This document shows, in pieces, positions 2 through 33,505 of a DNA stretch of 34,815 nt. The notes under the pieces are model-generated. The model worked only from the letters and a program-made list of their open reading frames with translations. It had not been told where the DNA came from and did not search any database. Position 1 is the stretch's first letter, and each line of letters opens with the position of its first letter. Source of the DNA: Elusimicrobiota bacterium (lineage in GTDB: Bacteria; Elusimicrobiota; Elusimicrobia; UBA1565; UBA9628); contig JABEUV010000078.1 in assembly GCA_013044195.1 (NCBI GenBank), positions 1 to 34,815 of the forward strand, in the 5' to 3' direction. The position numbers and the translations under genes are program-made.

Positions 2-3000
2 CAGGTAGCGCTCGGAGAGCAGGACCGGCAGGCCGTTTTCCTCGTAGTGGCTGAAGCGCACCTTCGTCGAGACCTCGCCGTCGGGAAGGCGCGCGTCGAC
101 GGTTTTCCCGTCCGAGTCGGCCGCGTAGGATTTCAGCGCCCAAGACGGCGCGGCCGCGTCGACCTGCGCGCCCGTCGCATAGGACTTCACGATGCGGCCG
201 GCGGCGTCCAGCACGGCCGCCGCCAAGCCTCCCGCGATGCGGCCGGCGACCGGGCCGCCGGCGATCTCCTGCGACAGCGCCAGCGGCCCGCGCGCCGCCG
301 GAGCCTGCGCGTCGACGACGTCGCCCGCGGCGTCCAGGCTCAGGACCAGGTCGCTGGTGCGGTAGAGCGTCCACGACTTGGCGTGCGCGAGCGTGACCTT
401 CAAGTCGTCGACCGCCTTCTGCGCGTTGACGACCTTGGCGTCGGCCAGGCGCAGTCGGTCTCCCGTTTTTTTAAGCGCCGCCAGCGCGGGGTCGATCTTG
501 GCCTTCGCGCTCGCCTGTCCCGGCGCCGTCTCGGCGTCGCGCGTCGCGGCCAGGAACGCGCGGCTTTCCGGCCCCGCAACGCCGCCGGGCGCCGAGACCA
601 TCGCCTTCGCCGCCGCCGCGGCCTTCTGAGACTGCGAAGCCGAAGCCTTGTTTGCCGCGGCCAAATCCGCCCCGGCGCCGTTATAGGCCGCCTGAGCCTT
701 CGCGTCGGCCGCCTTCGCCGCCGCCGACTCCGCCTGCGCGGCGGCCAGCGCGCTCTGGGCGGCGGCCAGGTCGGTCGGCGCGTGGTCGAACGCCTTCCAC
801 TGCGCGTTGAAGTCGTCGTTGGTGGTGTAGAGCTGGACCAGGCGGCCTTGCGCGTCGCGCGCGAAGCCCGCGCTGTCGAGCTTCACCTCGACCCAGCCGC
901 GGCGCAGAGACGCCGCCTCCTGCGCCAGCCGCGCCTTCTGCAGATCCGCCGCGCCCTGCGGCGAGGCGACGAGCTTGGCGAAGTCTCCCGCCTCCGCGGA
1001 GGCCTGCAGGCTGCCCAAGTTCGGAAATTCGTCGCGACCCGGGGGCGTGCCCGCGCCGGTGTAGGCCATCACCACGACCTTGTCGGCCGGCAGGGACTGC
1101 GCGGCCAGCGGCGTCATCGCCACCAGACCGGCCTCGGTCTGCACGTCGCCGGGCCGCAATTTCGGGTCCGGGCCGAAATAATAAAGCTTGCCCGCCTGAG
1201 ACAGGCCGCCGGGGCCGTACACGTCTTTGAAGCTCTGCGGCTTCAGCGGGCCGCCGTTCGCGTCGGCCAGCGCGAAGTCGCTGCGCGACAGCACGCCGTC
1301 AAGGGCGAGCGCGTTCGCGTTGTCGCTCAGCGCCGCCGCGGAGCCGTCGCGCACGGCCTGGGCCACGTCCACGCCGCCGACCACCTCGTAGGTCTTGCCG
1401 GACTGCGTGCCGCCCGCGCCGTCGCGTACGTACACCCGGCCTCCGGTGGTGATGAAGTCGTGGTCGGCGTTCCAGACCGTGTATTCGTCGGCGGACAGCC
1501 AGCGGCCGACGCTCCAGGTCCGCTGGCCGTTCGGTCCGACCTCCACCAGCGCGTACACCGGCTGGAGGTCCGTGGTCTTGGTCAGCCAGCGCGACTTCAT
1601 GTCGACCAACTGCTGCAGCGCCTGCGCGTCGCGGTCGATCTCCTGCGGCGGGCGGCCGGACCAGGTCGCGCCGCGCAGGCGCTCGCGCTCCAGCATGATC
1701 AACGCGTTGAGCGCGGCCATGCCGCGGCCGTATTTCGCCGTCTGGGCCGCGCGCGAGTCGTCGCCGATCACCTCGGCGCGCACGTCGTAGAGTCCGTCGA
1801 GAAGGCGCACGAGGCCGGGGCTGTGCTCGAACGCCGGCGACTCCAGCGCCGCCTCCAGCTCCGCGTCGAAGGCGGCCTGCGCTTTCAGATAGGCGTCGAG
1901 GCGGTCGTCGGTCAGCAGGAACTTCGTCGCGTTGTCGCCGTTGGCCGACAGATAGTCGGCCAGCAGGGCGTCCTTCGCGTCGTCGACGCCTTTCTGCAGA
2001 TTTTCCAGGCGAATAAATTCGGCCGCGACGGCGGGAGGCGGATTGTCCGCGCCCCAGAACGCGGTATCGAGCTGGCCCATCAGCGCGCGGCGTTGAGAGA
2101 GCGCCAGCGCGCCGTCGCGCGCCGAGTCCTCGGCCTGCGCGTGGAAGAAGGTCAGCAGTTCGGCCCCGGAGCCGGAACTGGGGTTCAAGCCGCCGAGCGA
2201 GGCGATCACCGCGTCCACGTCCTCGCGCACCGCCTGGCGCTTGCCCTCCTCGTCGTTGCGCGTGAGCAGATCGAGGCGCTGGGCGTCCGTGTAGTCGTTG
2301 CCGCGCACGCCGTCGGCGTTCGTCCGCGCGATTCGATAGAGCCGGGCGTCGGCGTCGAGCCGCGCGACAAGCCCCGGCTGGACGGCGGGCGAGAGCTTGG
2401 CCAACTCCGCGTCCTGAGCGGCCGCAAACGCCGGGTCGGCCATGCGCTCGGTCCAAAAATCAGCCAGCGCGCCGGTCGCGTCGGGCCGCAGGGACGGCGG
2501 CGGCACGGGCGCGACCGTGGCCTGCAACGGGTGCAGTGTCCCAGCCGAGCCCTCTCCGAGCGCCTGCAATTCGGTCACCAGGTCGATGAACGCCGATTTC
2601 GTGGCGACCATCGTGCCGCCGAAGTCGGACCAAGCCTGGGCCAGTCTCTGCTGGGACGCGGCCAGCGCGGCCGCACCCCCGGGCTGGTCGATGAGTGCCG
2701 TGCGCGCGCGCAGATCGGCCTCGTCGGCCTGGATCTGCGCGCCGCGCGCCTGCAGTTCTCGTTCGCCGTCCTGGACCTTGGTCATCAGCAGGTTGAGCTG
2801 GAGGGACAACTGCTGCATGCGCCCGTCGGACTCCAGTTGCTTGCGCAGGACGTCGGACATGATGCTCTCAAGGCCCTTTTGGATGTCGCGCGGATCGGGG
2901 GCCTCCAGGAAAACGCCGCTGATGCTCTGGCCCTGGAACAGGCCGCTGGCAAGCACCGGCGTGAAGCCCTTGTAGCTCATGCGCTCGGCGATGGTGTTGG

Positions 3001-6000
3001 CCCGGATCTGCTGCATCAGGCCGTCCTCGGTGCCAAAGTTCGCGGGCAGGCCGCCGTCGGAGAACAAGGTCTGTTGGATGATACCGACCTCGCGCTGTTG
3101 AATATCGGAGATCAGTCCCGCGGCCAAATCGGCCGGGCTCGCCGCCGCGGTCGCGTCCTGCGGCACGAGCGCGGCCAGCCCGGCCGCGGCCGACGGCGAC
3201 AGACCCAGCAGGGCCGCGATCCGCTCGGATTCGCCGGCCACGCGCGCGGCCGCGCTGGCGCGCAGCGCATCCAGCTCCGCGGGTCGGGCCGGGTCGCCGG
3301 GCCGCGGCGCCGCCGGCGCAATCGGCGGGAAGCCGCGCGCGCGCAACTGCGCCTCGGCCCAGCGCTCCAGGCGCACATCGGTCTGAAACCGCGCTTCCAG
3401 CACCCCGGCGTTCACCCGCGCTCCGGCCAGTTCGGTCTGATAGATGCGCGCCGCCTTCTGGTCGCGCAGGCGTGAGAGGGCAAGCAGGACGCTCGGCGGA
3501 GTGCTGGGATCGCGCAGACGCACCTCGATCCAGCCCTCGACGAAGTTCTTGTTGATCGGCAGTTCGCCCATCGTCTGCTTGGCGTAGTCGTAACGCATGT
3601 ACGCCGACGAGTTGCCCTGGGCCACGACGGGAGAAGGGATGTCGGGCGGCGCGGTCGGAGAAGCCGGCGCCAACGCCTGCTCGGAGCGGGCCAGCTCGGC
3701 CTGCAGTTGAGCCCAGTTCGTCGGCGGCGTCGGCGCGTTCGCGGCCGATGCGGCGGGCGCGGCGGGCGCTCCCGAGCCGTCGCCCAGGGCGTAGAGGCCG
3801 GCTTGTTCCTTGAGGATGTCGCCTTGGAGCTCGGCGGCGGTCACCGCCGCCGACGGGTCGGTCGAGCCGGCCAGCGCCGCGAGTTGGGCCTGATCGTCGG
3901 CCAGCCGCTGATGCAGGCGCGAGCGCTGGTCGGCGACCTGCGCGGGCAGGGCCGCCAGAGCGCGCTCCGCCGTCAAGGTGTTGATGCGCGCCGCGGCGGC
4001 CTTGTCCGGGTCGTAGATCGGGCCGTCGCCGAAGGCGCCGATGAGGCGCGTAAACGCCCGCACCACGATCGACACCGGCTCCAGTTGAAGCACCTGGACC
4101 TTCAGGTTTTTGTCGACCATCTGCTCGACGGCGCGCGCGACGGCCACGCGCGCGTCCAGCACGCGCGTCTGCGTGACGACGGGGTTCTGAGACTCGACCA
4201 AGGTCTTGAGCGCCGCCAGCGCCTGCGCCGGGTCCATGTCGATTTCCAGCGGCGCGCCGGCGGCGCGTCCCAGTAGAAAATTCAGCTGGGCGCGGGCCGA
4301 GTTCTCCGAGGAGAGCGCCAAGCCGCGCTTGACGCGCGCGTCATCGAGCTTCTGAGTCGCGTTCGCGCCGCCCGACGCGGCCGCCGCGGCCAGCGCCGGC
4401 AGGACGCGCGAATCGTAGAGGCCGACGGCGTTCTGCGCCGTGCGGTAGGCGACGACCTCTTGATAGAACTGCACGGCCAGACCGGTCTTGAGGCTGGCCT
4501 GAAGGTCCTCGTAATACGCTTTCTGTTGGTCGTGCTGGCGGACCTGCAGTTCGCGCAGTTCCTCGGGCTGGAACTGGAAACCGAACACCGGCGTCACCGG
4601 AATGCCGGTGATCGCGATCTGCGGAATCCAGCCCAACCCCGAGTCCGTGAGGCCGACGCCGACGTTGAGGTCGAGCCACGCCTTCTGGAGCCGGTGCTCC
4701 TGCGAACGCGCCATCTCCTCGGCCGCCTGCGCGCGGTCGGCGAGCGCGCCCAGGTTCTTGGAGTCGGCGACGGCCAGCGCGTACGCATCGTTGAACGAGG
4801 CGATGCGGGCGGGCCCCGACGGCAGGCTGGGCCGGCCCATCGAGGCCGGATCCTCGATGGCCGCCGCGGCGGCCGCGACGGAGGCGTTGGCGCTGGCGTC
4901 GAGCGCGGTCTGCGCATACCAGCGCCATGCGTCGAAGGCGCGACGCAGGTCGTCGGGGCCGATCTGGCCGTTGCGGTAGGCGCGGATGGCGTCGCCCAGG
5001 CGCGCGGCCGCGGCCGGCCCCTGCGGCGCCGACGCATCGGACGCCGCCTGCCAGGCGCGCGCGCGGTCGAGATCGGCCTGGCGCTGGACGTCGCGGTCGG
5101 CGTAGAGCTGGTCGATCTCCAAGTTGGTCGCCTGGCTTTCGAGCACGTAGGAGTGATCGGCCGCTTTCGAGGAGGGGTCGTAGATCGGCAAGCGCATCGA
5201 CACGCCCATGGTCAGCACCTGGTTGTTCATCATGTCCTGATACTGGACGCCGAAGCCGGCCGACAGCCGGTCGACCCACGGCAACCAGTTCATCACGTTG
5301 AACGGCACGGCGCCGACATCCTTGCGCAGCGCGGCGGGGTCGAGCGTGCCGAGGATCTTCGTCAGGCGGTCCGGCGCGGAGACGAGCGTGCGAATGTTGC
5401 CCATCAACTGCTGGAGGTCCGCCGCGTTGAGCTGGGCGAACGGCGAGGGTGCGGCCGGATCGCGGCCGGCCAGCGCGTTGTAGCGCGCGAGCGCCTGGTT
5501 GTAGCGGTCCAGCGCTTCGGACAAGCGCACGCGCGCGTCGGCGCGCACGGCGTCGTTGGGAGCGTTGCGCACCTCGTAATCGGCCAAGCGCAGGTCCCAC
5601 TGAGCTTCGGCCAGGGACGCCACGTCCTCCTGCCACTGCTTGGTCAGAGAGACAAGCCGGTCCTGAAGCTCGAGACCTTCCTTGGCCAGAGAGTAGGTCT
5701 TGTCGTCGATCAGCTTCTTCTGCGTCTTGGTCAGGGTCATCTCCGTATACGTGCCCACGGTCGGTCCGCCGCCGACGGCCAAGTCGGCGGTGGTGTTGTC
5801 GACGGCGCGCGAGACGAAGCCGACCATGCCTTGCGTGCGCGTGTTGTCCATAAACGCGCCGGCCTTGCGAAGTTGATCGATGTCGCTGGTCAGGCCGCCC
5901 ATGTCCTGAGTGATCAGCTTGCGCGCGACGTCGGTCGCGTAGACCTGGCTCAGCGCCTGCACGGTCGGCGAGGCGCCCTTCGCGTCGGGGCCGAAGAAGT

Positions 6001-9000
6001 CCGTCATGCCCTTGTCGAACGCCGCCAAGGTCCGGCCGCCTTGGAGCTCTTTGTGCGCATGGTCGGCCACCGCCTGCCACAGCTGAGCGAGCGTGAAAGA
6101 CGTGTCCATCGTCAGCGATAGACGGTTGCCCATGCCGATGTACTGGGAGCCGTAGCCGAGGTCGACCGAGGAGTTATCGCTGAGCTTCTTGGACAGCTGG
6201 GCGTAGTAGGTTTTCGCGCCGCCGATGATCTCCCCCTGGCCGCTCAGCGTGATGCCCTTGTCCGGCAAGGTGAACGAAATCTGGTCGCCATAAGTGTTGG
6301 CCACCTGCCCGGCTTCGGCGTTGAGGCTGTTGTTGATCTGCAGCCAGGTCTTGCCCTGGTCGTTCTTGATCGAGATGCCCTTGACGATCGTGGTGCCCAG
6401 CGACTGCTGCTGAATGTCGTCGGTGCCGCGCGTGTTGGCGTAATACATGCTGACGGTGAAGGAGTCGCCGGTGTCGTGGCCGAGGAGTCGGTTGACGTCG
6501 AACGTGGGGCCCACCTGCGTGCGCGAGTAGTATTTGTTGTCGCCGTTGGCCGTAATCGCGAAGTTCTGGTTCAAGCTGGGGTCGTAGCCGGTAAAGTTCA
6601 GATTCGCGGTCTCCAGGAACGTGCGCGGATCTTTTATGAACAAAGCCTGCTGGGAGGCGTCAAGGCTCATCACGTCGTTCATCTTGAACGAAGTCTTCAG
6701 GTTGCCGCCGTAGAAGTAGGGGTTGCTGCCCGGCTGATTGGCGAGGTCTCCGTAGCCGGCCAAGCCCACGTAGAGCTTGTTGTTGAGCAGCATCACCGCG
6801 TAGTCGTCGAAGATCATCAGGCGCGACGGGCTCAGCGTCGAGCCGATGGTGTTCGTAGTCGGGATGTCGAAGCCGAAGCGGTGCAGGTCGACGTTCAGGT
6901 AGTTGACCCAGTTCTGGCCCTGCAAAGACTCGACCTGGACCTCGACGCCCTTGTCGCCGTAGGGCGCGTTCTGGCCGCCGGAGCTGGGGGGGCTGGTGAA
7001 CTGGTAGCTGTTGACGCTGATGTTGTTGCCCCAGACGTGCGCGACGTTGCCGAGCGTCGCCCAGGTGCCGGTCTGCAGGCCATTGGGCACCGAGAAGTTC
7101 GACTGGTAGACCAGGTAGAAGCCGTCGGCGTTGTCGCCGAACTGCATGATGCTGGCGCCGGGGATGAAGTTCGAGATGCCCGCGGGGTCGGAGAGAAGGC
7201 TGCTCTTGAGCGAGGACAAATCCTGGTTGGCGATGTTCTGCGAATTCTGCGTGACCATGCCCAGCATCGCGTCGAGGAAGGACGAGAAGTCCGACTTCTT
7301 GATCACGATCGCCTGCGTCGAGTCGCCGCCGCCGCTCATGGCCCAGGCGCCCCCGCCCTGGCCCAGGCGCAGGGCCTCGATGCGGCGCACGAGGTCCGGC
7401 GGCAAAGAGCCCTGGACGGCGGGGTCGGTCAGCATCTGCGTGAGCTTCTGCTGGTCGCTGTCGACGCCGGTCAGGTCGGCCTGCACGATTTGCTGGGAGC
7501 GCGACAGATCGTTTTCAAGCTGGTGCCAGTTGATGTTGGCGTCGAGGACGGCCTTGGTCTGGTCCTGGAGCTGGGACACGTCGTCGGCGACGTTGCGCAG
7601 GGCGCTATGCTGGGCCGGGTCGAGCTGAGACATCCAGGACAAAACCTTCGCCTGCGTGGTCTGCAGGCCGCTCAACGTCGTCGCCAGCGCCTGGGACATG
7701 GTGTTGATCTCGGTCAGTTCGTTCTGGTTGACCGACGAGCCGTTGGAATAGATCGTGCCCAGCGAGTTGTAGTACGTCTGCACCGAGTTCAATGTACCGA
7801 ACGCCTGCTGGTCCCAGCCGGTCTTCATTCCGTAGAACGCGCCGGCCTGCTGGAGGAAGCCGTTGAGCTGGTTGTAGACCGCGACCTTGCGCGCGTAGAC
7901 GGCGGCCGGCGTCGCGTTCGTGCCGTTGGAGTTCACGTAGGCGTCGTCGATCTGCGTGTCGGCGATCGCGGCCCCCAGCGACTGCGAGGCCGTGTTCAGG
8001 AAGGCGACCGCCTGAGGAACCTGACTGCTCAGCGCCGACTGCGCGGACGCGACGACGGAGTTGGCGTAGAGATAGCGCGCGACCGCGTAGGCGGCCGGCG
8101 CTCCGGCGGGCTGGGCGATGCTGGACGGAACCAGGCGCTGGGCCGCGTTGAGCGCCAACATCGATATCTGCTGGTCGGTCGAGATCGTCGGCGAGGGCTG
8201 CTTGCCGACTGGAACCGCGCCGCTGCCGCCCGCGCCCACGCTGATCGACGTCGAGCCCGCGGCGGCCTGGGCGGCCTTGGCGATGGTCTGCAGTTCGGTG
8301 CCCAGGTTCGGGATAAGGCTTGCGTTGACGATCGCGTTGACCTTCGCGATGCTGCCTGCGTCGGTGCCCACGCCGGTGGGCAGCATGTAGGCCTGAAGAT
8401 TGTATTTCCCGTTCGACAAGGTCTGGATTTGGGTCAGGATCTGATTGATCTGGGTATCCTCGGTGTTGATCTGCGTCGCGCGCTGGGCCTCCTCGGCGTT
8501 GTACTGCGTGATCTTCATCGGCAGGCTGTAGGGCTGGACCTCGCCGTACAACGTCTCGGTGCGCGTGCAGCCGGACGCGCACTGGCGGTCCTTCATGTCC
8601 TGGAGGTACTGCGTGATGCCTTCGTGTTGACCGGCGGAATCCGTGTAGCCGGTCATGTAGTTCTGCAAGGTCTGGCGGAACGAGGCGATGTCGGCGTGCG
8701 CGGCCGCGGTGTTCCCGGTCGGCGCGCCCTGCGTGACGACGGCCCACGGGATCGTGTTGTTGTAGAGGCTGTTGGTCTGGGTCAGCAGGTTCTGCTCGGC
8801 GGTGAACAGCGTATAGTAAGACCCGTTGCTGTTGGCCGCGTAGGAGGCGATGCTGCTCTGCTGGTAGGGGATCAAGCTGCCGGTGATCATCTGCTGGGCG
8901 TTGCGCAGGGTCGGGAGGATGGTGTTCTGAAGGAGCGCGGTCTTGCGGTCGATCAGCGCCTGGCCGCCGCCTTGGCCGGTGTTGACGAAGTTCACGTCGG

Positions 9001-12000
9001 CCGAGATGTCGCTCAGGATCGACTGGTCCATGCTGACTAGGCCCTGTAGAGACTGCTGGACCTTGGGCAAGGTCGTCGTCATCGCGGTCTGGATGGCGGT
9101 GACCGTCGCTTGGTCTTCCGACCATTGGATGACCGCGCGCGCGGCCAGAGGGACGTTCTGCGCCGCCGTGATCAGCGCCATCTTGGCCTGGAAGGTGGCC
9201 ACCGAGCCGTCGTTGGGGAACTGCACGGCTTGGAGCTGCGCGCCGTAGTTCTTGATCGCGGTCTGCAGCTGGGTCAAAGACATCCCCGACAGCATGGGGA
9301 TGCTGGAGCCGGCGGCCTTGTTGATCTGCGTGGCCGTCGCGTCCAACTGGGCCAGGAGCTGCTGGGCCGCCGTCTGCTTGGCGCCCAGGTCCGTCTGGGT
9401 CTGCGCCAACCAGCGCGGCAGCGACTGGGGCAGGACGTCGCCGAAGACGTTCGTGGTCGTCGCCGCGTTGTTGGGATCCATCATCGCGTTGACCTGGTTC
9501 AAAAACGACTGCTTCGACGCCAGTTCCTTCTGCCAGCCCGCCTGGCGCTCGGAGAGGATCTGCAGGACCTGGGCCTTGGTCGGATTGCTCACGGTCGGGT
9601 TCGGCTGACCGGGCGCGGAGCCCGGCACCGCGATGACCAGCGCGCCGGCGAATTCCACCGGCACGGCCGGAATCTTCGCCAGGCCCGCCTGAGCCTGGCT
9701 CAGCGCGGTGTTGACCTCGGTCAGATCCGCCTGGAAGCCGGACAGCGAGAATGCCGACGGATCGTTGGGGTTGCCGGTGGTCGCCCACTGCGCGGCCTGG
9801 GGCAGGAGGGCCAGGCGGCGCGCGTATTCGGCGGCGGCGGTCGCGCTTTGGCCCTTGTCTTGCGCGTTGACCTCGGAGAGGAAGCCGCTGATCGTCTGCT
9901 GGAACTGGCCGATGTTCTGCGTCGCGGTACCGGCCTCGGTCTGCAGGCCCGCGAGGCTTTTCTGCGACGCCTGGTCCAGCGCGACCGCCTGCTGGGCCTG
10001 CTGCTGCCATTGCGTCTGCTGGGCCGAGGTCGCGTTGTTGGCGGCCAGGTTCTGCTGGTTCTGCGCGGCCGACGCATTGATCGCGTTGGTTTTCTGCTGG
10101 AGCAGGCCCTGCATCTTGGCGATCGCCGCCTCCGCCGCGGAAATCTCGTTGAGGGAGAGCGCCAGGTCGACGACGCTGTCGAGCTTGGCGAAATCGGTGT
10201 GGAACTGCATCATGCCCTGGCCGTTGCGACGGTCGGCCAGCGCGTGGTTGCGTATCCGGTTGGACGCGGCAAGCAGTGCCTCGGTCGCGTCGCGCTGGGT
10301 CAGCTCGGCCTTCACCTGCTCGCGCTCTTTGTAAATGCGATCGACCATGCCTTGGATCGCGGTCTCCTTAGTCTTGCTGAGCCGCGGGGTCACGGTCGGC
10401 CCCGCGACCCCGCCCGAGCCTCCATGGAGCAGTCCGTCGATGCGCGCGGCCAGCGCCTTATACGACGCCTCGCGCGCCGCCAGTTCGTCCGGCGTGCCGT
10501 CCTTATCCGTCGGCGGCGGAGGCAGGAGCGGTCCGTAACGGTCGCTCAGGGCCTTCAGACGCCGGAGGTCGGACAGGTCGGCCGCGGTCGGATTGGTGAT
10601 GTCGCGCTTCTCGGCCAGCTTGGCCTGGACGTAGGACTCGTCGCGCTTGGCCGCCAGTTCACGCAGGAGCGCTGCGTACTGCGCGCGCTCCACCGCCGTG
10701 ATCGGCCGGCTTTGAGACTTCAGCGCGGCTTCCTGCGCCGCGACGTCGCCGAGCTTGGCGCGCAATTGCGTCATGCGCGCCTCCACCGCCGAGGTCTCCG
10801 CCGAAAGCCCGCCCGCTCCCGCCGCCAGCGCGCGGATGCGCGTCAGCGCGTCGGCCGGGGGCCCTTTCCAAAGATCGGCGTCGAAGGGCAGCTTCGAGTT
10901 CGGCCGCGCTTCGGCCGCGCTCACCAGCGCCTGAGCCGGGGCGCGCGTCTCTCCCACATGCGCGGCGTCCTCGAAGCCCAGGCCGCTCTTGACGGTCAGC
11001 GCCGCGCCCATGACCGCGTCGGAGATGTGCAGGCCGCTGACTTCCTGCAGCTTGAAGAGCAAGGTGCTGCCCCAGGTGATCGCGCCGCCGAACGGGATCA
11101 CGCTCTGGCCCTTGGGCCGCTCCACGGCGGAGCCGACGGCCTCGAACAGGTGGAACTGCCCGCCGGTGGCGGCGTGGTAGGCGGGGTTGATCGAGGCGTC
11201 GATCTGGCCGGCGTAGGTCATGATGCCGGCGATCTCCGCGCCGACGGTCGAAAGGCCCACGAAGGACTTGAGGTTGGCGCTCCAGAAGGCGCGCGAGAAC
11301 GCCGTGCCGGCGATCACGCGCAGCCATTCCTGGGCGGTCAGGTCGGTCAGCGGGTGGCGGTCGCGGATCTTGGCGATGGCGTCGCGCGCGCTGGACGGGA
11401 AGGTCAGCAAGGTCGACAGGATCATGGTGTTGAGCAGAGGCCCCACCACCAGGTCCCGCGCCAGCCCCCCCGCCGCGGCCGCCACGACCGGCGCCAGAAG
11501 GTGGCCGACCAGCGGCGTGGCGCCGACGACGACGGGCAGGCCGTTGAGGCCCCAGACCAGCGCCGGACCGAGCAACGGGATGGAAGTCAGCGCAAAGGAC
11601 AGCGGCAGAACCGGCGCGAACGCGCCGAGCAAGCCCATGGCGACGGCGCTCAGCACCGCGAGCGTCAGGCGGCGCGCCAGGAAGGTCGCCAGCGGCCGCG
11701 CCAGCGGCGTCAAAAACCAGCGCTCGACTTCGCGAAACCAGGAGCGCGCGCGCAGGCGGCCCAGCGCGCCGGGTCCGCGCAGGCGCTCGCGGCGCAAAGA
11801 CGCCTCCAGCCACTTGCGCGCCAGGTCCGGCTCTTTCGACAACCCGAGAAAATCCTCGCCGGAGTGGAAGAACTCGAAGGAGATCGCCTGGCGGAAATAG
11901 CCGAACACGAACGTGTCGAACAGATGATACGGGAAGCGCACCGCCACGCCGAGAAAGAGCTTGTGGACTTCCAGCAGGCGCGCACCGACGCCGCGCCAGC

Positions 12001-13027
12001 CCGGCGCGTAGGACCGGTTCGTCAACTCTCGGAAACTCGCGAAGCCGTTGTACTTATGCGAGTCCAGGCGCTTGAAGTGATCGCGGTTGACCGCCTGAAG
12101 GCGGTCGTAGACGGACAGCCAGTTTTCGCGCGGGCTGCTCTCGTCGATGCCGAAGCCGCGCGCCAGTTCCAGCACCTCGCGGCGGGGCAGACCAAACTGT
12201 CCCGAGATCTGGTCGATCACGCGCGCCGCGTCCGCGTCGCGCGGCAGGCGGCCCAGCCCCGGCTCGCGCGTCAGGCCGCGCACGGTGCGGAAGCCGAGGA
12301 AGTCCTCGCTCAGATACTTAGGCGTGGCCGCTTTTTCGGCGCTCGGCGCGGGCGGAACGCGGGCGGCGGGTCCGGACGCCGGGCGCGCGGCCGACGCGGG
12401 CCGCAGTTGCGCCTCAGCAGGCGCGGGCCGCGCGGAGGACGCCGCGACGGGGTCCGCGACGTCGCCGTCCTCTCGCGGCGCGGCCTCGCCGGTCAGGCGC
12501 CGGAAGGAGGCGTCGGCCTCGGACTTCGCCGCGGCGGGAGACGACGCCTCGGACGCGCCCGCGGCGGACGCGTCAGGGTTCAACGCGGCGGAGCGTCCCG
12601 TCGCGGCGCGCAGCCAGGCGCCGGCGCGAGCGACCGGCCCCTCGTCGGCGGGTGCGGCGAACGCCGCGGCGGGCGCGGCCGCCAGGGCGGGCGCCGGCGC
12701 GGGCAGAAGGCTTGGCGCCGCGACGGCGGCGGACGGGCGATCGTGGCCGCCGAGCGCCGCCGAGGCGGGCGCCGACGCGGGCGCGGACAGCGCCAGCGAA
12801 AGCGCGCCCAGCGACGCGGCCGACAGCGCCGGAGCCAGCGACGCGGCCGACGGCGGCAGGGCGGCAACGGCGGGGCGCGCGGCGGGCGCCGCGTCGGCGG
12901 GCCGGTCCATGTCGATTTCCGCCGCGACGGCCGCGGCTCCCGGACCAAACGACGTCATGAGGACGGCGGCCGAGACGACGGCCGCCGCCGCACGCGTCAA
13001 CCACCCTCGCTTCGGGCGCGGGTTCAT
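2..13027 (-). CDS. Giant exported protein with TolC-like outer-membrane region (C-terminus beyond window)
   Basis: An uninterrupted minus-strand frame of 4342 codons runs from ATG 13027 off the left edge; in-frame triplets spot-checked across the whole span held no stop. Residues 1-36 look like a Sec signal peptide: basic start, Ala/Val core, cleavage after AVAA. An Ala/Pro-rich stretch follows to about 225, then hydrophobic segments at about 440-545. Residues 720-1950 are largely helical and Gln/Asn/Ala-rich. Residues 1990-2310 are beta-rich with alternating aromatic/polar strands, as in outer-membrane proteins. Residues 2300-2930 resemble the TolC family: a beta segment ending GVSMRLPIYD, long helices, and the typical QLNFLLGRAAGAPLEID ending. 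The rest mixes coiled coils with short beta motifs such as GWVEVKLD. Known TolC proteins are about 400-500 aa, so here the fold would be one module of a giant. A role in efflux or export is inference only. The exported, envelope location is better supported than any function. Confidence 0.85.
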   Translation of the reverse strand, partial: MNPRPKRGWLTRAAAAVVSAAVLMTSFGPGAAAVAAEIDMDRPADAAPAARPAVAALPPSAASLAPALSAASLGALSLALSAPASAPASAALGGHDRPSAAVAAPSLLPAPAPALAAAPAAAFAAPADEGPVARAGAWLRAATGRSAALNPDASAAGASEASSPAAAKSEADASFRRLTGEAAPREDGDVADPVAASSARPAPAEAQLRPASAARPASGPAARVPPAPSAEKAATPKYLSEDFLGFRTVRGLTREPGLGRLPRDADAARVIDQISGQFGLPRREVLELARGFGIDESSPRENWLSVYDRLQAVNRDHFKRLDSHKYNGFASFRELTNRSYAPGWRGVGARLLEVHKLFLGVAVRFPYHLFDTFVFGYFRQAISFEFFHSGEDFLGLSKEPDLARKWLEASLRRERLRGPGALGRLRARSWFREVERWFLTPLARPLATFLARRLTLAVLSAVAMGLLGAFAPVLPLSFALTSIPLLGPALVWGLNGLPVVVGATPLVGHLLAPVVAAAAGGLARDLVVGPLLNTMILSTLLTFPSSARDAIAKIRDRHPLTDLTAQEWLRVIAGTAFSRAFWSANLKSFVGLSTVGAEIAGIMTYAGQIDASINPAYHAATGGQFHLFEAVGSAVERPKGQSVIPFGGAITWGSTLLFKLQEVSGLHISDAVMGAALTVKSGLGFEDAAHVGETRAPAQALVSAAEARPNSKLPFDADLWKGPPADALTRIRALAAGAGGLSAETSAVEARMTQLRAKLGDVAAQEAALKSQSRPITAVERAQYAALLRELAAKRDESYVQAKLAEKRDITNPTAADLSDLRRLKALSDRYGPLLPPPPTDKDGTPDELAAREASYKALAARIDGLLHGGSGGVAGPTVTPRLSKTKETAIQGMVDRIYKEREQVKAELTQRDATEALLAASNRIRNHALADRRNGQGMMQFHTDFAKLDSVVDLALSLNEISAAEAAIAKMQGLLQQKTNAINASAAQNQQNLAANNATSAQQTQWQQQAQQAVALDQASQKSLAGLQTEAGTATQNIGQFQQTISGFLSEVNAQDKGQSATAAAEYARRLALLPQAAQWATTGNPNDPSAFSLSGFQADLTEVNTALSQAQAGLAKIPAVPVEFAGALVIAVPGSAPGQPNPTVSNPTKAQVLQILSERQAGWQKELASKQSFLNQVNAMMDPNNAATTTNVFGDVLPQSLPRWLAQTQTDLGAKQTAAQQLLAQLDATATQINKAAGSSIPMLSGMSLTQLQTAIKNYGAQLQAVQFPNDGSVATFQAKMALITAAQNVPLAARAVIQWSEDQATVTAIQTAMTTTLPKVQQSLQGLVSMDQSILSDISADVNFVNTGQGGGQALIDRKTALLQNTILPTLRNAQQMITGSLIPYQQSSIASYAANSNGSYYTLFTAEQNLLTQTNSLYNNTIPWAVVTQGAPTGNTAAAHADIASFRQTLQNYMTGYTDSAGQHEGITQYLQDMKDRQCASGCTRTETLYGEVQPYSLPMKITQYNAEEAQRATQINTEDTQINQILTQIQTLSNGKYNLQAYMLPTGVGTDAGSIAKVNAIVNASLIPNLGTELQTIAKAAQAAAGSTSISVGAGGSGAVPVGKQPSPTISTDQQISMLALNAAQRLVPSSIAQPAGAPAAYAVARYLYANSVVASAQSALSSQVPQAVAFLNTASQSLGAAIADTQIDDAYVNSNGTNATPAAVYARKVAVYNQLNGFLQQAGAFYGMKTGWDQQAFGTLNSVQTYYNSLGTIYSNGSSVNQNELTEINTMSQALATTLSGLQTTQAKVLSWMSQLDPAQHSALRNVADDVSQLQDQTKAVLDANINWHQLENDLSRSQQIVQADLTGVDSDQQKLTQMLTDPAVQGSLPPDLVRRIEALRLGQGGGAWAMSGGGDSTQAIVIKKSDFSSFLDAMLGMVTQNSQNIANQDLSSLKSSLLSDPAGISNFIPGASIMQFGDNADGFYLVYQSNFSVPNGLQTGTWATLGNVAHVWGNNISVNSYQFTSPPSSGGQNAPYGDKGVEVQVESLQGQNWVNYLNVDLHRFGFDIPTTNTIGSTLSPSRLMIFDDYAVMLLNNKLYVGLAGYGDLANQPGSNPYFYGGNLKTSFKMNDVMSLDASQQALFIKDPRTFLETANLNFTGYDPSLNQNFAITANGDNKYYSRTQVGPTFDVNRLLGHDTGDSFTVSMYYANTRGTDDIQQQSLGTTIVKGISIKNDQGKTWLQINNSLNAEAGQVANTYGDQISFTLPDKGITLSGQGEIIGGAKTYYAQLSKKLSDNSSVDLGYGSQYIGMGNRLSLTMDTSFTLAQLWQAVADHAHKELQGGRTLAAFDKGMTDFFGPDAKGASPTVQALSQVYATDVARKLITQDMGGLTSDIDQLRKAGAFMDNTRTQGMVGFVSRAVDNTTADLAVGGGPTVGTYTEMTLTKTQKKLIDDKTYSLAKEGLELQDRLVSLTKQWQEDVASLAEAQWDLRLADYEVRNAPNDAVRADARVRLSEALDRYNQALARYNALAGRDPAAPSPFAQLNAADLQQLMGNIRTLVSAPDRLTKILGTLDPAALRKDVGAVPFNVMNWLPWVDRLSAGFGVQYQDMMNNQVLTMGVSMRLPIYDPSSKAADHSYVLESQATNLEIDQLYADRDVQRQADLDRARAWQAASDASAPQGPAAAARLGDAIRAYRNGQIGPDDLRRAFDAWRWYAQTALDASANASVAAAAAAIEDPASMGRPSLPSGPARIASFNDAYALAVADSKNLGALADRAQAAEEMARSQEHRLQKAWLDLNVGVGLTDSGLGWIPQIAITGIPVTPVFGFQFQPEELRELQVRQHDQQKAYYEDLQASLKTGLAVQFYQEVVAYRTAQNAVGLYDSRVLPALAAAAASGGANATQKLDDARVKRGLALSSENSARAQLNFLLGRAAGAPLEIDMDPAQALAALKTLVESQNPVVTQTRVLDARVAVARAVEQMVDKNLKVQVLQLEPVSIVVRAFTRLIGAFGDGPIYDPDKAAAARINTLTAERALAALPAQVADQRSRLHQRLADDQAQLAALAGSTDPSAAVTAAELQGDILKEQAGLYALGDGSGAPAAPAASAANAPTPPTNWAQLQAELARSEQALAPASPTAPPDIPSPVVAQGNSSAYMRYDYAKQTMGELPINKNFVEGWIEVRLRDPSTPPSVLLALSRLRDQKAARIYQTELAGARVNAGVLEARFQTDVRLERWAEAQLRARGFPPIAPAAPRPGDPARPAELDALRASAAARVAGESERIAALLGLSPSAAAGLAALVPQDATAAASPADLAAGLISDIQQREVGIIQQTLFSDGGLPANFGTEDGLMQQIRANTIAERMSYKGFTPVLASGLFQGQSISGVFLEAPDPRDIQKGLESIMSDVLRKQLESDGRMQQLSLQLNLLMTKVQDGERELQARGAQIQADEADLRARTALIDQPGGAAALAASQQRLAQAWSDFGGTMVATKSAFIDLVTELQALGEGSAGTLHPLQATVAPVPPPSLRPDATGALADFWTERMADPAFAAAQDAELAKLSPAVQPGLVARLDADARLYRIARTNADGVRGNDYTDAQRLDLLTRNDEEGKRQAVREDVDAVIASLGGLNPSSGSGAELLTFFHAQAEDSARDGALALSQRRALMGQLDTAFWGADNPPPAVAAEFIRLENLQKGVDDAKDALLADYLSANGDNATKFLLTDDRLDAYLKAQAAFDAELEAALESPAFEHSPGLVRLLDGLYDVRAEVIGDDSRAAQTAKYGRGMAALNALIMLERERLRGATWSGRPPQEIDRDAQALQQLVDMKSRWLTKTTDLQPVYALVEVGPNGQRTWSVGRWLSADEYTVWNADHDFITTGGRVYVRDGAGGTQSGKTYEVVGGVDVAQAVRDGSAAALSDNANALALDGVLSRSDFALADANGGPLKPQSFKDVYGPGGLSQAGKLYYFGPDPKLRPGDVQTEAGLVAMTPLAAQSLPADKVVVMAYTGAGTPPGRDEFPNLGSLQASAEAGDFAKLVASPQGAADLQKARLAQEAASLRRGWVEVKLDSAGFARDAQGRLVQLYTTNDDFNAQWKAFDHAPTDLAAAQSALAAAQAESAAAKAADAKAQAAYNGAGADLAAANKASASQSQKAAAAAKAMVSAPGGVAGPESRAFLAATRDAETAPGQASAKAKIDPALAALKKTGDRLRLADAKVVNAQKAVDDLKVTLAHAKSWTLYRTSDLVLSLDAAGDVVDAQAPAARGPLALSQEIAGGPVAGRIAGGLAAAVLDAAGRIVKSYATGAQVDAAAPSWALKSYAADSDGKTVDARLPDGEVSTKVRFSHYEENGLPVLLSERYL

Positions 13028-13063
13028 TACTGGAAGCATAGCTCCAGTACGGCAATAAGTCAC
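13028..13063 (-). promoter_or_regulatory. Probable leaderless promoter with palindrome before the giant gene
   Basis: On the minus strand a TATGCT -10-like hexamer (13035-13040) ends 7 nt before the ATG at 13027; a weak -35-like GTGACT lies 17 nt further up (13058-13063). The -10 sits in the loop of a perfect 7-bp inverted repeat, TACTGGA/TCCAGTA, with arms at 13028-13034 and 13043-13049. Transcription would start at or next to the start codon. The palindrome could be an operator. Promoter activity is inferred from sequence only. Confidence 0.45.
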
Positions 13064-13126: not shown

Positions 13127-13139
13127 CAGTGCCAGGCTT
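13127..13139. repeat. Direct repeat copy 1 flanking the RAYT-like gene
   Basis: The 13-mer CAGTGCCAGGCTT lies at the 3' end of the transposase-like gene, its last base touching the stop codon. An identical copy in the same orientation lies upstream of that gene. The 111-bp gap between the transposase-like gene and the giant gene also holds a GGGCCC palindrome at 13120-13125. Confidence 0.65.
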
Positions 13140-14038
13140 CAATTCATTGAGGAAAGTCGGGAATCTTCCAGGGCGCGGATGGTCTGGCTGATGGCGCTGG
13201 GCGTGCGTTGGAACAAACGCGCCAGTTCGGTGACACCCATGCGCGTCTCGCGCCAGACCCGGTGGACGGCCTCGCGGCGCACGGAGGACACCTCGCGCCA
13301 CTGGACGCGACCGAGTATTTTCTCCTCGCTGACGCCCCGACGGGCGGCGACTTCGGCGATGATGCGGCGCGCCGCCTCGATGGGAACAGGGCGCGGCGCC
13401 GGAGTGGCGCGCCAGGCGCCGACCCGGTCCAGGAACTCCGACCCGCCGATGGCCACGCCGCCGACGATGGGCAGGCCGTCGCCCGCCGACGCCGGACGTT
13501 CGCGCAGATATTGCAGGTAACGCACCGACTGCTTCAACCGAACGCCGCCGAAATCCCTCAGGACGGCACCCGAGTCCACGAGCGGATCCTTGTGCTGGGC
13601 CTCGACGTAGGCGGCGCACGACGACCACTGGTAGCGCCACGGTTTGTCTAAAAGGCCCTCGCGCGCGCATTCGAGATGGACCCACCGCGTCATCTCCGCC
13701 AGGTGCGTGTCCTTGTCGACGACCCAGGCCTTGTAGCGGCCCTGGAACACGTGCCCGACGGTGCCGTGCGCGGCGTTGAAGGACTTCGTGTATTGGGTGT
13801 TGAGGCCCTGCATGGCGGCCGAAAGGTTCGGCCGGACGGTCTCAAGGAGAAGGCTCGCCGAGCGTCCGAGAAGGCTGTAAGCGTAGACCTTGAGAGCGAA
13901 GCGCTCTTTATACGCCTTCAACTGCGCCAAGAACAAACGGCGGTCCTGATTCGACACGAACAAGTCCTGGCGGTTGTTGCCCTGCAGCGCGACCAAGTAG
14001 CAGGCTCCGGCAAATTGAATTCTTTTTGGTCTTCCCAT
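13139..14038 (-). CDS. RAYT-like (REP-associated) transposase relative lacking catalytic residues, with DnaA-like C-terminal domain
   Basis: The 299-aa product begins like Y1/IS200-type REP-associated transposases and keeps the family block HVFQGRYKAWVVDKD followed by a WSS motif (residues about 95-145). RAYTs normally use a His-X-His pair and a tyrosine to cut single-stranded DNA. Where the family has roughly NHYHLLLET, this protein reads GRSASLLLET, so both histidines are gone. Where the family has RYIHLNP it reads RWVHLEC, so the tyrosine I align with the E. coli RAYT active site is Trp. The C-terminal 75 residues or so (REAVHRVWRETRMGVTELAR, then RTPSAISQTIRALE) resemble DnaA domain IV, a helix-turn-helix. 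The frame is intact, which suggests selection on DNA binding rather than transposition. The catalytic alignment is from memory. The gene lies just upstream of the giant gene on the same strand. Confidence 0.85.
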   Translation of the reverse strand: MGRPKRIQFAGACYLVALQGNNRQDLFVSNQDRRLFLAQLKAYKERFALKVYAYSLLGRSASLLLETVRPNLSAAMQGLNTQYTKSFNAAHGTVGHVFQGRYKAWVVDKDTHLAEMTRWVHLECAREGLLDKPWRYQWSSCAAYVEAQHKDPLVDSGAVLRDFGGVRLKQSVRYLQYLRERPASAGDGLPIVGGVAIGGSEFLDRVGAWRATPAPRPVPIEAARRIIAEVAARRGVSEEKILGRVQWREVSSVRREAVHRVWRETRMGVTELARLFQRTPSAISQTIRALEDSRLSSMN

Positions 14039-14153: not shown

Positions 14154-15173
14154 TCAACGGCCTTGAAGCAGTTGGTATCCGCAGCGCCAGGGGCCGTCCG
14201 CGTTTCGGAACTCCGGGTCCCCGCCCCGGCAGACGTCCCATTCCTCGCAGCCGGCGCATAGACCGGCGCGCCAAGCGCCGTTGGACTCCCGTCCCAGGAG
14301 CTGGGCTTTGGGCCCATCGGCGGACGCCGTCAGCCGATAGGATGCGACGGGCTCGAGCACGCGCCCGAACTGGTCGACGTCCACGGTGACGCCCCGGGTC
14401 TCGTAGGCACGCCGTCCGTCCGGGCGAAGGTTGATGGCCTGCTCGAGCTTGCGGCCCCACCAGAGCTGGGTCACAAAAGAGGTGGGCGGCGATTCATCAC
14501 CCAGCAACCTGCGGTCGGCAAGCCAGTGGAAGAACGCGAGATAGTCCTCGCGGAGGGGCCGCAGAGCGTCGAAGGTCTCGGGCCGCCATGGCCCCAAGTC
14601 GTAGATCCGCCAGCCCTTGAGCCGGCGCTCCGCCAAGATGCGGGCGAGCGGGGGCAGCCAGTCCATCGCGCCCCGGCGCAGGACCGTGTTCACGTAGCAA
14701 GCGACGGGCCCGCCCGGCGCAAGGCGATCGAGAAGCCGCAGAACGCTGTCATAGGATTGGCCGTCGTTGCGTACCTGCCGATGCTCCTCAGGAGTGCCGT
14801 CGATCGACAGCCAGAGCTGCATGCTCTCGAACCGGGCAAAGCGCTCTTACCACGCCTCGGGCTGCCGGGCCAGCTTCAGTCCGTTGCTCGCCACGACGAG
14901 CCGGCGGCAGCCCAGGTCCTTGATTCCGTCCAACAAAGGCTCCAACCCGGGGTAGAGGAAAGGCTCGCCGCCGGTGAGGATGACGGTGAAGGCCGGGCTG
15001 GCCATCAGCGGGGCGAACCGCCGCAGGGCGGCGAGAAACACCCCATGCCCGGCGAACGGCCGGCGTTGCTGCGTCGGCGACGCGCAGTGGAGACAGGCGA
15101 GCTCGCACTCGTGCGTCAGACGGACCCTGACCGCGGCGATGTCGGCGACGACGCGCTCGTCCTGTGTCGTCAG
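14154..15173 (-). pseudogene. Radical SAM/SPASM protein interrupted by in-frame TAA
   Basis: Read through, this frame gives about 339 aa, a normal size for a peptide-modifying radical SAM/SPASM enzyme. The N-terminal part has the CX3CX2C iron-sulfur motif CELACLHC, followed by the GGEP motif in LTGGEPFLYPG. The C-terminal part has a SPASM-like cluster, CAGCEEWDVCRGGD, with a further Cys near the end. The two parts are split by TAA at 14847-14849 between PEAW and ERFARF, with no frameshift: the same frame continues through LWLSIDGTPEEH. An ATG at 14822 could restart the second half alone, without the cluster motif. No ATG, GTG or TTG exists between the upstream gene's stop region and the Cys motif. 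The best candidate is CTG at 15173, overlapping the upstream TGA as CTGA. Family enzymes cleave S-adenosylmethionine to crosslink peptides. It is probably decayed unless the stop is read through or is a sequencing error. Confidence 0.75.
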
Positions 15174-15622
15174 CAGGGCGTGCCGGGGGTGCCGCCGCAG
15201 CCCGGCTCTCCAGGATCCCCGCCGCAGTCGCCGACGATCTCTCCGGATTTTCTCGAAGCGTTCTTCGCAGTCTTCGTCGCAACCTGACGGCGGAGAAGCT
15301 CGTCGAGCTTGCCGTCGAGCTCGGCCAATTTCGTATCCGCGGCGTTCGAAGACTGCTCGGCGGAAAGATTCTTCGGCATCTCCGCAAGTTCGAGAGGCTT
15401 GGAGGCGACGGCGCTCTTCGCAAGTTCGGAAGGCCTGGCGGCGACGGCGCTCTTCGCAAGTTCGGGGAGATTGGCGGCGACGGCGCACGCGTCCTTGTCC
15501 GGCTTCGATGGATGAGCCTGCGTGTCGGTCGCCGCGTCGGCGGAGCGGCCGCCCGACAACAGCATGGAGACGGCAAACCCCAGATTGCACAGAATCACTT
15601 TACGCCCGAAATTCTTAGCCAT
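15170..15622 (-). CDS. Small secreted Cys-tailed protein, possible radical-SAM peptide substrate
   Basis: The product has 150 aa. A GAGAGGA ribosome site lies upstream of ATG 15622. The N-terminus (MAKNFGRKVILCNLGFAV, ending SADAA) looks like a signal peptide. Residues about 47-82 hold three degenerate 12-residue repeats around ELAKSAVA. A Lys-rich helical stretch follows. The C-terminus is Gly/Pro/Cys-rich: GDCGGDPGEPGCGGTPGTPC. Its stop overlaps the first possible codon of the radical SAM frame downstream. That layout, small Cys-ended protein then radical SAM/SPASM enzyme, resembles RiPP precursor-maturase pairs. However, a Sec-type leader is unusual for a cytoplasmically modified peptide. 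The pairing is inference; I recognise no named family. Confidence 0.7.
   Translation of the reverse strand: MAKNFGRKVILCNLGFAVSMLLSGGRSADAATDTQAHPSKPDKDACAVAANLPELAKSAVAARPSELAKSAVASKPLELAEMPKNLSAEQSSNAADTKLAELDGKLDELLRRQVATKTAKNASRKSGEIVGDCGGDPGEPGCGGTPGTPC
15381..15488. repeat. Three 36-bp tandem repeats inside the small secreted protein gene
   Basis: Units begin at 15381, 15417 and 15453, each starting near (T)TCGCAAGTTCG and containing GGCGACGGCGC. Units 2 and 3 are nearly identical at their starts; unit 1 is more diverged. They encode the 12-aa repeats of the small protein. Confidence 0.75.
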
Positions 15623-15805: not shown

Positions 15806-16831
15806 TTATTTACATCGCGCCAGACGCTCGCGCAGGGCTTGAAGCGCCGCGGTTTCGCCGATCAGCACCAGCCGATCTCCCGCGCGCACCAGGCGCTGCG
15901 GCGGCGGATTGATCTCGTAATTGTCCGCGCCCGCGGCCACGACCGCGACCAACAGCGGGCCTGCGCCCGTGCCGCGCAGTTCATCGACGGAGCGGCCGAG
16001 CGCGGGCGAGCCGTCGCCGACGACGATCTCATCGAAGCGCACGTGCACGCTGCGCTCGCGCAGCATCGCGTCGAGAAATCCCACGGTCGCCGGCCGAATC
16101 ATCTCCGAGGCCAGGCGCATCCCGCCGATGAACTCCGGGTCGACCACGCCGTCGGCGCCGCTGCGCAGGAGCTTGTCGCGCACGCCGATGGTCTTCTGGC
16201 AGGCCAGCACGCGCGCCTTCGCATTGAGACCCTTGGCGCTCAGGACCACGAACGCGTTGTCCTGATCGGTGGCCAGCACCGCGAACACGCCGCAGGCGCG
16301 CTCGATGCCGGCCCGGAGCAGGACCTCGTCCTCGGAGCCGTCGCCCACCAGCCGCGGCACGTCCGCGCCCAGCCGCGCCACCAGCCGGTCAATGGCCAGC
16401 GCGTCACGGTCGACGACGACGAACGGCCTGCCGGTCTTGAGCAGTTCCGCGCAGATGACGCCGCCCGTGTGACCCGCGCCGCACACGATGAAGTGGCTTT
16501 CCAGCCGAGCAATGTCTTTGTCCATACGCCTCCTGCGCAGCGCCTTGGTGAGCTCTCCCTCGACGACGATGGCCGTGATCGTCGAGAACGCGTAGGCGAC
16601 CACGCCGATGCCGCCCAGAATCAACAGCATCGTGAAGGCCCGCCCGGCCGTCGACAGCGGATGCGTCTCCCCGTAGCCCACGGTGGCCAGCGTGATCACC
16701 GTCATGTACAGCCCGTCGAACAGGCTCCAGCCTTCGATGAGCCGGTAGCCGAGCGTGCCCGCAATCAGGCACGCGATCAGCAAGGACGCGACTCCCAGCA
16801 GGCGCCGCCGCACGTCGCGAAGCTGGTCCAT
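15806..16831 (-). CDS. Two-TM potassium channel with RCK domains (MthK/Kch type)
   Basis: The 341-aa protein has transmembrane helix 1 at about residues 10-30, a pore loop with the K+ selectivity filter TVGYG (TVITLATVGYGE), and transmembrane helix 2 at about 65-90. It then has an RCK/TrkA-N Rossmann domain with the GAGHTGG nucleotide loop, VVVDRD at the end of the second strand and GDGSEDE, and a TrkA-C domain at about residues 255-338 ending in RAGDRLVLIGE. The order and length match MthK-type channels, which form tetramers gated by ligands on a ring of RCK domains in the cytoplasm. The start has a TAGAAT hexamer only 8 nt upstream. It is divergent from the ATPase gene and has no evident functional link to the giants. 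Confidence 0.93.
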   Translation of the reverse strand: MDQLRDVRRRLLGVASLLIACLIAGTLGYRLIEGWSLFDGLYMTVITLATVGYGETHPLSTAGRAFTMLLILGGIGVVAYAFSTITAIVVEGELTKALRRRRMDKDIARLESHFIVCGAGHTGGVICAELLKTGRPFVVVDRDALAIDRLVARLGADVPRLVGDGSEDEVLLRAGIERACGVFAVLATDQDNAFVVLSAKGLNAKARVLACQKTIGVRDKLLRSGADGVVDPEFIGGMRLASEMIRPATVGFLDAMLRERSVHVRFDEIVVGDGSPALGRSVDELRGTGAGPLLVAVVAAGADNYEINPPPQRLVRAGDRLVLIGETAALQALRERLARCK

Positions 16832-29204: not shown

Positions 29205-29235
29205 GGCGTTCTCCAGAACTTTTTCGTCGCGCGTC

Positions 29236-29288
29236 AGTGTAGCTCTTCGTCCTCCAACTTTCCTGGGTCTAAAGTCCTATACCGACTT
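29236..29288 (-). promoter_or_regulatory. Promoter region of the 887-aa secreted protein gene, with conserved box
   Basis: The minus strand holds TACACT (29236-29241) and, 23 nt further up, CTTTAGACCC (29265-29274) preceded by GTCGGTATAGGA. The SecA-like giant has the same TACACT, 22 nt, CTTTAGGCCC layout with GTCGGTA just above. AAAGTC/GACTTT also forms a 6-bp inverted repeat here. The -35 is poor, which would fit an activator-dependent promoter. Confidence 0.5.
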
Positions 29289-29300
29289 TGTGTGGGGCGT

Positions 29301-31922: not shown

Positions 31923-31946
31923 GGGGGTTTCTCCTGAATTAAATCA

Positions 31947-33419: not shown

Positions 33420-33441
33420 GGCTTGTTTGCGCGACTTGTCC

Positions 33442-33470
33442 AGTGTAGCGGCCGACGCCGGCTTTGTCAA
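33442..33470 (-). promoter_or_regulatory. Strong sigma70-type promoter TTGACA-17-TACACT
   Basis: On the minus strand a perfect TTGACA (33465-33470) is 17 nt from TACACT (33442-33447). Transcription would start near 33435, leaving about 15 nt before ATG 33419. No clear Shine-Dalgarno sequence is seen in that leader. The TACACT -10 is the same as at the two other promoters of this cluster. Confidence 0.7.
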
Positions 33471-33505
33471 CCGCGGCCATATGCATTTACCGCCTTTTTA
33501 CGCGT

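Follow-up and report, generated by a model that had tools for sequence, protein, structure and literature searches.

A giant envelope protein of Elusimicrobiota carrying a putative single-chain, pseudo-trimeric channel of the TolC type

An envelope protein of ~4,770 amino acids (aa) from an uncultured member of the Elusimicrobiota carries, with a probability that we put at roughly 60%, a complete outer membrane factor (OMF, a TolC-type channel) in the form of one pseudo-trimeric chain. Residues ~2400 to ~3510 are predicted from structural models to consist of six successive OEP half-repeats, u1 to u6, which would alternate between the OEP1 and OEP2 types as [u1 u2][u3 u4][u5 u6] and would correspond to the 3 x 2 repeats of the TolC homotrimer. 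All TolCs known to us consist of three separate copies of a ~450-residue protein. Six half-repeats are about three TolC protomers' worth, so the giant need not be a protomer awaiting partners.

The giant gene and its family

The window, that is the whole stretch of DNA analysed, is the entire contig C288 of 34,815 bases from a metagenome-assembled genome (MAG) of 3.36 Mb. The giant open reading frame (ORF) and the parts of its product lying outside the TolC-like region are located as follows, all on the minus strand.

2..13063 (-): giant ORF, residues 1-4354 of ~4,770, 4354 codons long and running off the contig
12920..13027 (-): signal-peptide-like N-terminus, residues ~13-48, read by eye, with similar N-termini in homologues
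Following the signal-like stretch: Ala/Pro-rich linker by composition, extending to residue ~250
10424..12316 (-): N-terminal domain, residues 250-880, its conservation being restricted to the long form
7394..10426 (-): extended conserved stretch, residues ~880-1890, Ala/Gln/Asn-rich
6074..7096 (-): beta-rich region, residues 1990-2330, with the highest conservation in the chain
2..2491 (-): C-terminal region, residues 3525-4354, with the last 413 aa on contig C197

The ORF 2-13063 (-) is one real gene, because third-position G+C is about 90% throughout (0.87-0.95 in each 300-codon block of the frame), dN/dS is low and ~50 stop-free homologues of the protein exist. The long ORFs of the opposite strand fit the shadow ORFs expected at such a G+C content. 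In comparison with two relatives (~90% and 77% identity), dN/dS amounts to 0.10-0.26 over residues 250-3525, to 0.42-0.51 in the N-terminal linker and to 0.23-0.35 in the C-terminal region; purifying selection on the gene and its conservation across an order are demonstrated. The end at 13027 given in a previous sequence-only reading coincides with the ATG that is probably the true start, directly ahead of the signal-peptide-like stretch MNPRPKRGWLTRAAAAVVSAAVLMTSFGPGAAAVAAE, and the frame itself is open to 13063.

The same reading had described a giant single chain that was unfinished at the window edge, and the remainder has now been located in the same genome, residues ~4356 onward lying at the start of contig C197, where positions 1-1239 comprise 413 codons, ending FWDWVFVLFALSGLLSALWTLLRSRARARA, and then a double stop. 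Since these 413 aa complete the 4354 codons of the window, the full chain is ~4,770 aa long. The two contigs are joined without sequence overlap, on the basis of alignment to the homologue L006, of which the residues up to 4185 align to the window and those from 4187 onward to C197.

The contig is a fragment of a MAG and its edge cuts the giant gene, as might be expected of an artefact of assembly or gene calling in which a TolC gene became chimeric with its neighbours. However, many independent genomes share this collinear layout, their stop-free frames being 3,300-5,650 codons long, and dN/dS is low; the probability of an artefact is negligible, and the existence of independent homologues already refutes it.

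With residues 1700-2990 as the query, matches were obtained in 43 of the 58 related genomes, in stop-free frames of up to ~5,650 codons (above 5,000 codons in several homologues). Collinearity among the full-length homologues extends from residue ~250 to the C-terminus. Two forms stand side by side in several genomes, namely, a long one of ~4,600-5,650 codons and a short paralogue of ~3,300-3,900 codons without the N-terminal domain. Among 294 sampled genomes of the phylum, members occur only in three families of one order and in a few relatives of the same class. In the complete chromosome of Elusimicrobiota bacterium JAD_PAG50586_1 (CP096137.1), both giant genes (L007 and L054) are split into several frames, by either sequencing indels or real decay.

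Regions outside the TolC-like region

A search of the whole window protein against Pfam and NCBIfam gave nothing useful, and neither adhesin or repeat domains (in these searches) nor an energising domain were found in the giant protein. The N-terminal domain contains conserved hydrophobic stretches around residues 461-540. In three long homologues (L030, L033, L044), extra hydrophobic N-terminal extensions of several hundred residues are present; a SWEET/PQ-loop assignment of the TM-rich extension of L030 was dropped, as it had no Pfam match. The region of residues ~880-1890, for which no family match was found, is probably mostly helical. The beta-rich region had been outlined previously as residues 1990-2310 and likened to a membrane protein; the conserved stretch and a periodicity of the beta type are borne out (the latter by hydrophobic-moment analysis, which is only mildly informative), and a membrane barrel may or may not be formed there, no meaningful match to residues 1990-2330 being found in Pfam, NCBIfam or PDB sequences. 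By hydropathy, the part of the chain encoded on C197 closes with a single membrane helix and the Arg-rich tail RSRARARA, and such a C-terminal hydrophobic helix with an Arg-rich tail is present in most of the complete long-form homologues.

Sequence homology to TolC

The half-repeats are listed below, with strand and helix limits in the numbering of the first AlphaFold2 model, to which 2339 is added to obtain the residue.

5468..5842 (-): OEP half-repeat u1, residues ~2408-2532, strand pair (69-78/94-106) and helices of 53 and 29 residues (108-160, 165-193), ending YNALAGRDP
4844..5269 (-): OEP half-repeat u2, residues ~2599-2740, strand pair (260-270/276-289) and helices of 66 and 38 residues (293-358, 364-401)
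4274..4795 (-): OEP half-repeat u3, residues ~2757-2930, helices (418-448), strand pair (453-469/484-492) and helices of 63 and 31 residues (495-557, 561-591), ending LNFLLGR
3788..4231 (-): OEP half-repeat u4, residues ~2945-3092, OEP-like helices (606-645, 680-725, 731-753) with a short strand (651-655), hairpin degenerate or unmodelled
3209..3607 (-): OEP half-repeat u5, residues ~3153-3285, strand pair (814-824/830-841) and helices of 53 and 26 residues (851-903, 921-946)
2561..2959 (-): OEP half-repeat u6, residues ~3369-3501, strand pair (1030-1037/1040-1047) and two long helices (1076-1116, 1124-1162)

When a profile of residues 2340-3530 was run against the 294 genomes of the phylum, only four genes outside the family were matched, all of TolC size (~430-490 aa), whose translations we take to be TolC proteins. 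Three of them (in G146, G222 and G163) match profile positions 279-390 and have a repeat-2 motif in common with the giant family (RYRNGLIS and AYRNGLI, respectively), while the fourth (in G266) matches positions 555-608, with NFLMGRAPDAP for NFLLGRAAGAP of the giant. At L088, L089 and L090, the TolC genes are followed by frames that appear, by eye, HlyD/RND-like (MFP + RND). Within the giant, u2 contains the motifs LPIYDP and YRNGQI (most homologues have YRNGLI), as in the second repeats of TolC, and u4 keeps the strand-to-helix junction GPIYDP, comparable to LPIYDP of u2.

Profile-profile comparison with 33 TolCs of the phylum gave an E-value of 2.5e-8 over 300 columns, with negative reversed controls, and in the segment-wise comparison (hhalign) u1, u2 and u3 match TolC and the reversed controls do not. 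Against a null set of 76 windows from the rest of the protein and the reversed sequence, with a maximum score of 25.3, all 200-residue windows with starts between 2345 and 2905 (residues 2345-3105) scored 30.8-64.8, above all 76 nulls; the u6 window (3305-3505) passed the maximum by a narrow margin (26.0), and the windows of u4 and u5 were not above the null. Outside ~2345-3110 and u6, no TolC similarity was detected by hhalign. The Pfam family OEP (PF02321) is recognised at u2 of the homologue L034 (27.0 bits vs the cut-off of 22), the window protein itself being below the OEP threshold, and the profile of residues 2340-3530 gave no meaningful match when searched against PDB sequences. Internal repeats were detectable by profile for u1 vs u3 only; a strong C1-C2 internal-repeat score was discarded as trivial, since the two segments overlap. 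Weak as they are, the sequence alignments of u4, u5 and u6 are in the registers expected of OEP2, OEP1 and OEP2, respectively. By profile comparison, the homology of u1-u3 to TolC is demonstrated.

Structural models of the six predicted units

The first model (residues 2340-3530, 19 sequences) was of pLDDT 65.7 and pTM 0.63. In Foldseek, its top 39 matches were all OMFs (1ek9 with E 1.3e-4 and probability 1.00), and VIA comparison with OMFs gave Z of 11.0-14.4 over ~330 residues, within model positions ~117-600. Since these alignments did not cover units 4-6, residues 2935-3525 were modelled alone (49 sequences, pLDDT 71.7, pTM 0.68). The top 40 Foldseek matches of the second model were again all OMFs (5azp_B with E 5.7e-5 and probability 1.00), and the first unrelated protein followed at E 0.52; in VIA, positions 199-577 (u5 and u6) align along an entire protomer (1ek9 1-406), with Z of 9.9-11.5 in the top 25 rows vs 9.4 for the next unrelated protein. 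Because the TM-scores of the second model are low and the VIA margin over unrelated helical proteins is modest (1-2), the case for units 4-6 is made by the concordance of Foldseek, the order of secondary structure and the register rather than by a single strong statistic. Foldseek and VIA matches beyond the OMFs (ABC transporters, vinculin-like proteins, FAT domains) were judged to be generic helical ones.

Altogether, the OEP repeat, i.e., two strands, a long helix and paired shorter helices, is seen as five clear units in the two models, with u4 as the exception. Its hairpin is absent from the models, and pLDDT is low in the hairpins of u1, u5 and u6. The sequence-only reading had placed a TolC-like region at residues 2300-2930 of an exported giant chain; the signal-like N-terminus and the TolC homology support such a chain and the region is real, but it extends from ~2400 to ~3510, and the six half-repeats had been undercounted. 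That reading had also named the lack of both an OEP match and a helical-tunnel or barrel pattern as the outcome that would tell against it, and this outcome did not occur.

The restriction of clear sequence homology to u1-u3, as well as the missing hairpin in the models of u4, might be explained if u1-u3 alone made up an OMF-like protomer, u4-u6 being a helical extension, and the giant homo-oligomerised like a normal TolC. We regard this as improbable, since u4-u6 modelled alone give OMFs as their 40 top Foldseek matches, u5 and u6 together cover a full TolC protomer, the weak alignments of u4, u5 and u6 keep the expected registers, and six units are already enough for a closed ring.

Proposed arrangement in the envelope

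In the preferred reading of a single-chain OMF, the six units would most likely come together in the outer membrane as a single pseudo-trimeric beta-barrel with 10-12 strands (the full 12 being uncertain because of the low pLDDT of several hairpins and the unmodelled hairpin of u4), with a 12-helix periplasmic tunnel beneath. A closed ring of six units would provide a TolC-like barrel and tunnel without oligomerisation; we infer that the monomer would close on itself, sit in the membrane, enclose an open pore and have a role in transport.

A Sec-type signal would export the giant chain, and the C-terminal membrane helix with the Arg-rich tail, probably together with the hydrophobic N-terminal domain, may anchor the chain ends at the inner membrane, as the hydropathy suggests. 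According to the positive-inside rule, the Arg-rich tail would be left in the cytoplasm. The remainder, which is probably helical in part, would then span the periplasm, so that the two membranes would be connected by a single polypeptide whose long regions would assume the bridging role of a separate adaptor protein. It is conceivable, though we hold it rather doubtful, that the giant is such a one-polypeptide trans-envelope conduit, anchored in the inner membrane by its own N- and C-terminal extensions and replacing both the oligomeric channel and the adaptor.

Gene neighbourhood

No adaptor or transporter gene adjoining the giant gene was recognised in the flanks examined, and for this reason no cargo is suggested by the context; in our own reading, a TolC-MFP-RND set lies several kb from the giant gene in one genome only (G031). 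Elsewhere in the genome of the window, 23 ordinary OEP matches occur. The absence of an adaptor or transporter gene next door, the ordinary OEP matches, by which the channel role is not vacant, the lost hairpin of u4 and the low pLDDT of several others would all suit a degenerate OMF that serves as a scaffold, its repeats acting, without an open channel, as a rigid spacer or inter-membrane tether or as a surface structure. Such a scaffold is unlikely, in view of the purifying selection and high conservation across an order and of the junction and repeat motifs retained in many units.

Directly upstream of the long form and on the same strand, a gene for a ~300 aa relative of REP-associated/IS200-like Y1 transposases is found at 17 loci, namely, in the window and at L008, L007, L123, L032, L041, L043, L124, L126, L039, L051, L146, L140, L034, L145, L042 and L033.

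13139..14038 (-): RAYT-like protein, HUH-transposase-derived, with a C-terminal HTH; syntenic upstream gene, HUH motif lost

The family matches were Pfam Y1_Tnp (E 1.2e-14, L124) and NCBIfam RAYT (8.4e-11, window). The expected first His of the HUH motif is missing in all 16 aligned copies and the second in about half of them, which suggests a catalytically dead protein. Because of the loss of these His residues, the gene product is probably a domesticated DNA-binding protein, and by its position it may regulate the giant gene. In the short-paralogue loci searched, covering part of the upstream region, the gene was not found.

Further genes of the window include two halves of one radical SAM/SPASM protein (14154-14822 and 14847-15590, minus strand) in different reading frames, the upstream ORF matching the N-terminal part of the profile and the downstream ORF a later part, by either a frameshift or decay of the gene. 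A TrkA-type potassium channel gene (15806-16831, minus strand) is near the giant gene in three genomes (also at L123 and L132). A second exported giant of 2,677 aa, without a family match, is encoded at 18397-26430 (minus strand) and has partial relatives (43-48% over 270-345 aa) near the giant loci in G016 and G036. In G020 and G019, exported ORFs of 2,447 and 2,595 aa, respectively, are situated upstream, with no kinship to the second giant implied. Four more large proteins at 26541-34814 (minus strand) had no Pfam, NCBIfam or PADLOC match, and one of them (29301-31922, minus strand) has ~40% identical relatives near the giant loci in G035 and G036.

Secreted-looking neighbours, as well as the signal-like N-terminus and the very long conserved regions that flank the pore on either side, might also befit a one-protein secretion or adhesion device, as suggested in the sequence-only reading, in which the remaining parts of the chain would be secreted or displayed through its own OMF-like pore. 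This appears highly improbable, given the C-terminal membrane helix and Arg-rich tail, as expected of an inner-membrane anchor, and the lack of adhesin or repeat domains in the searches above.

Comparison with known systems

The OMFs described in a review (PMC8277102) assemble as homotrimers from protomers of two repeats each, with 12 strands and 12 helices per trimer; in OprM, the helices H3/H7 are of 67 and H4/H8 of 36 residues. A mean length of 472 +/- 30 aa is given for the OMF family in PMC4827864. With the OMFs (TolC, OprM, CusC, CmeC; PF02321, TCDB 1.B.17), the giant shares the unit of a strand pair, a long helix and a second helix, the repeat-end motifs LNxLLGR and YRNGLI, and the homology of fold and profile. 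In contrast to their two repeats per protomer in three protomers, it would have six repeats in one chain, and it differs in being about ten times the usual length, in its extra domains and C-terminal membrane helix, and in the lack of an adjacent adaptor or transporter gene. With six predicted repeats and a length of ~4,770 aa, it is classed as a single-chain derivative rather than an ordinary OMF.

If the tethering is right, the giant would resemble the tripartite pumps and type 1 secretion systems (OMF, periplasmic adaptor and inner-membrane transporter) in forming a conduit across both membranes; unlike them, it would unite the outer-membrane and periplasm-spanning parts in one polypeptide, and it has no energising domain that was found. 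Fused outer-membrane pore proteins with two or three pore domains per chain are described in PMC4827864 and are similar in the tandem fusion of pore-forming domains, but the examples consulted there are whole porin-type domains joined together, whereas the giant would join the subunits of one oligomeric channel. A search of the open literature turned up no paper on a single-chain OMF, which does not prove that none exists.

Significance

If true, a natural single-chain OMF would mean that the TolC trimer can be concatenated and that its three protomer-equivalents are free to diverge. The units are asymmetric, with u1-u3 close to TolC and u4-u6 far from it. There would also be one gene in which the gating and docking of the pseudo-subunits may change independently. 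The Elusimicrobiota have been noted as rich in proteins above 5,000 aa without a COG assignment, and the giant differs from such huge bacterial proteins in that a recognisable architecture is proposed for it (PMC11573180). The proposed architecture would be the first for one of the huge unannotated proteins of the Elusimicrobiota.
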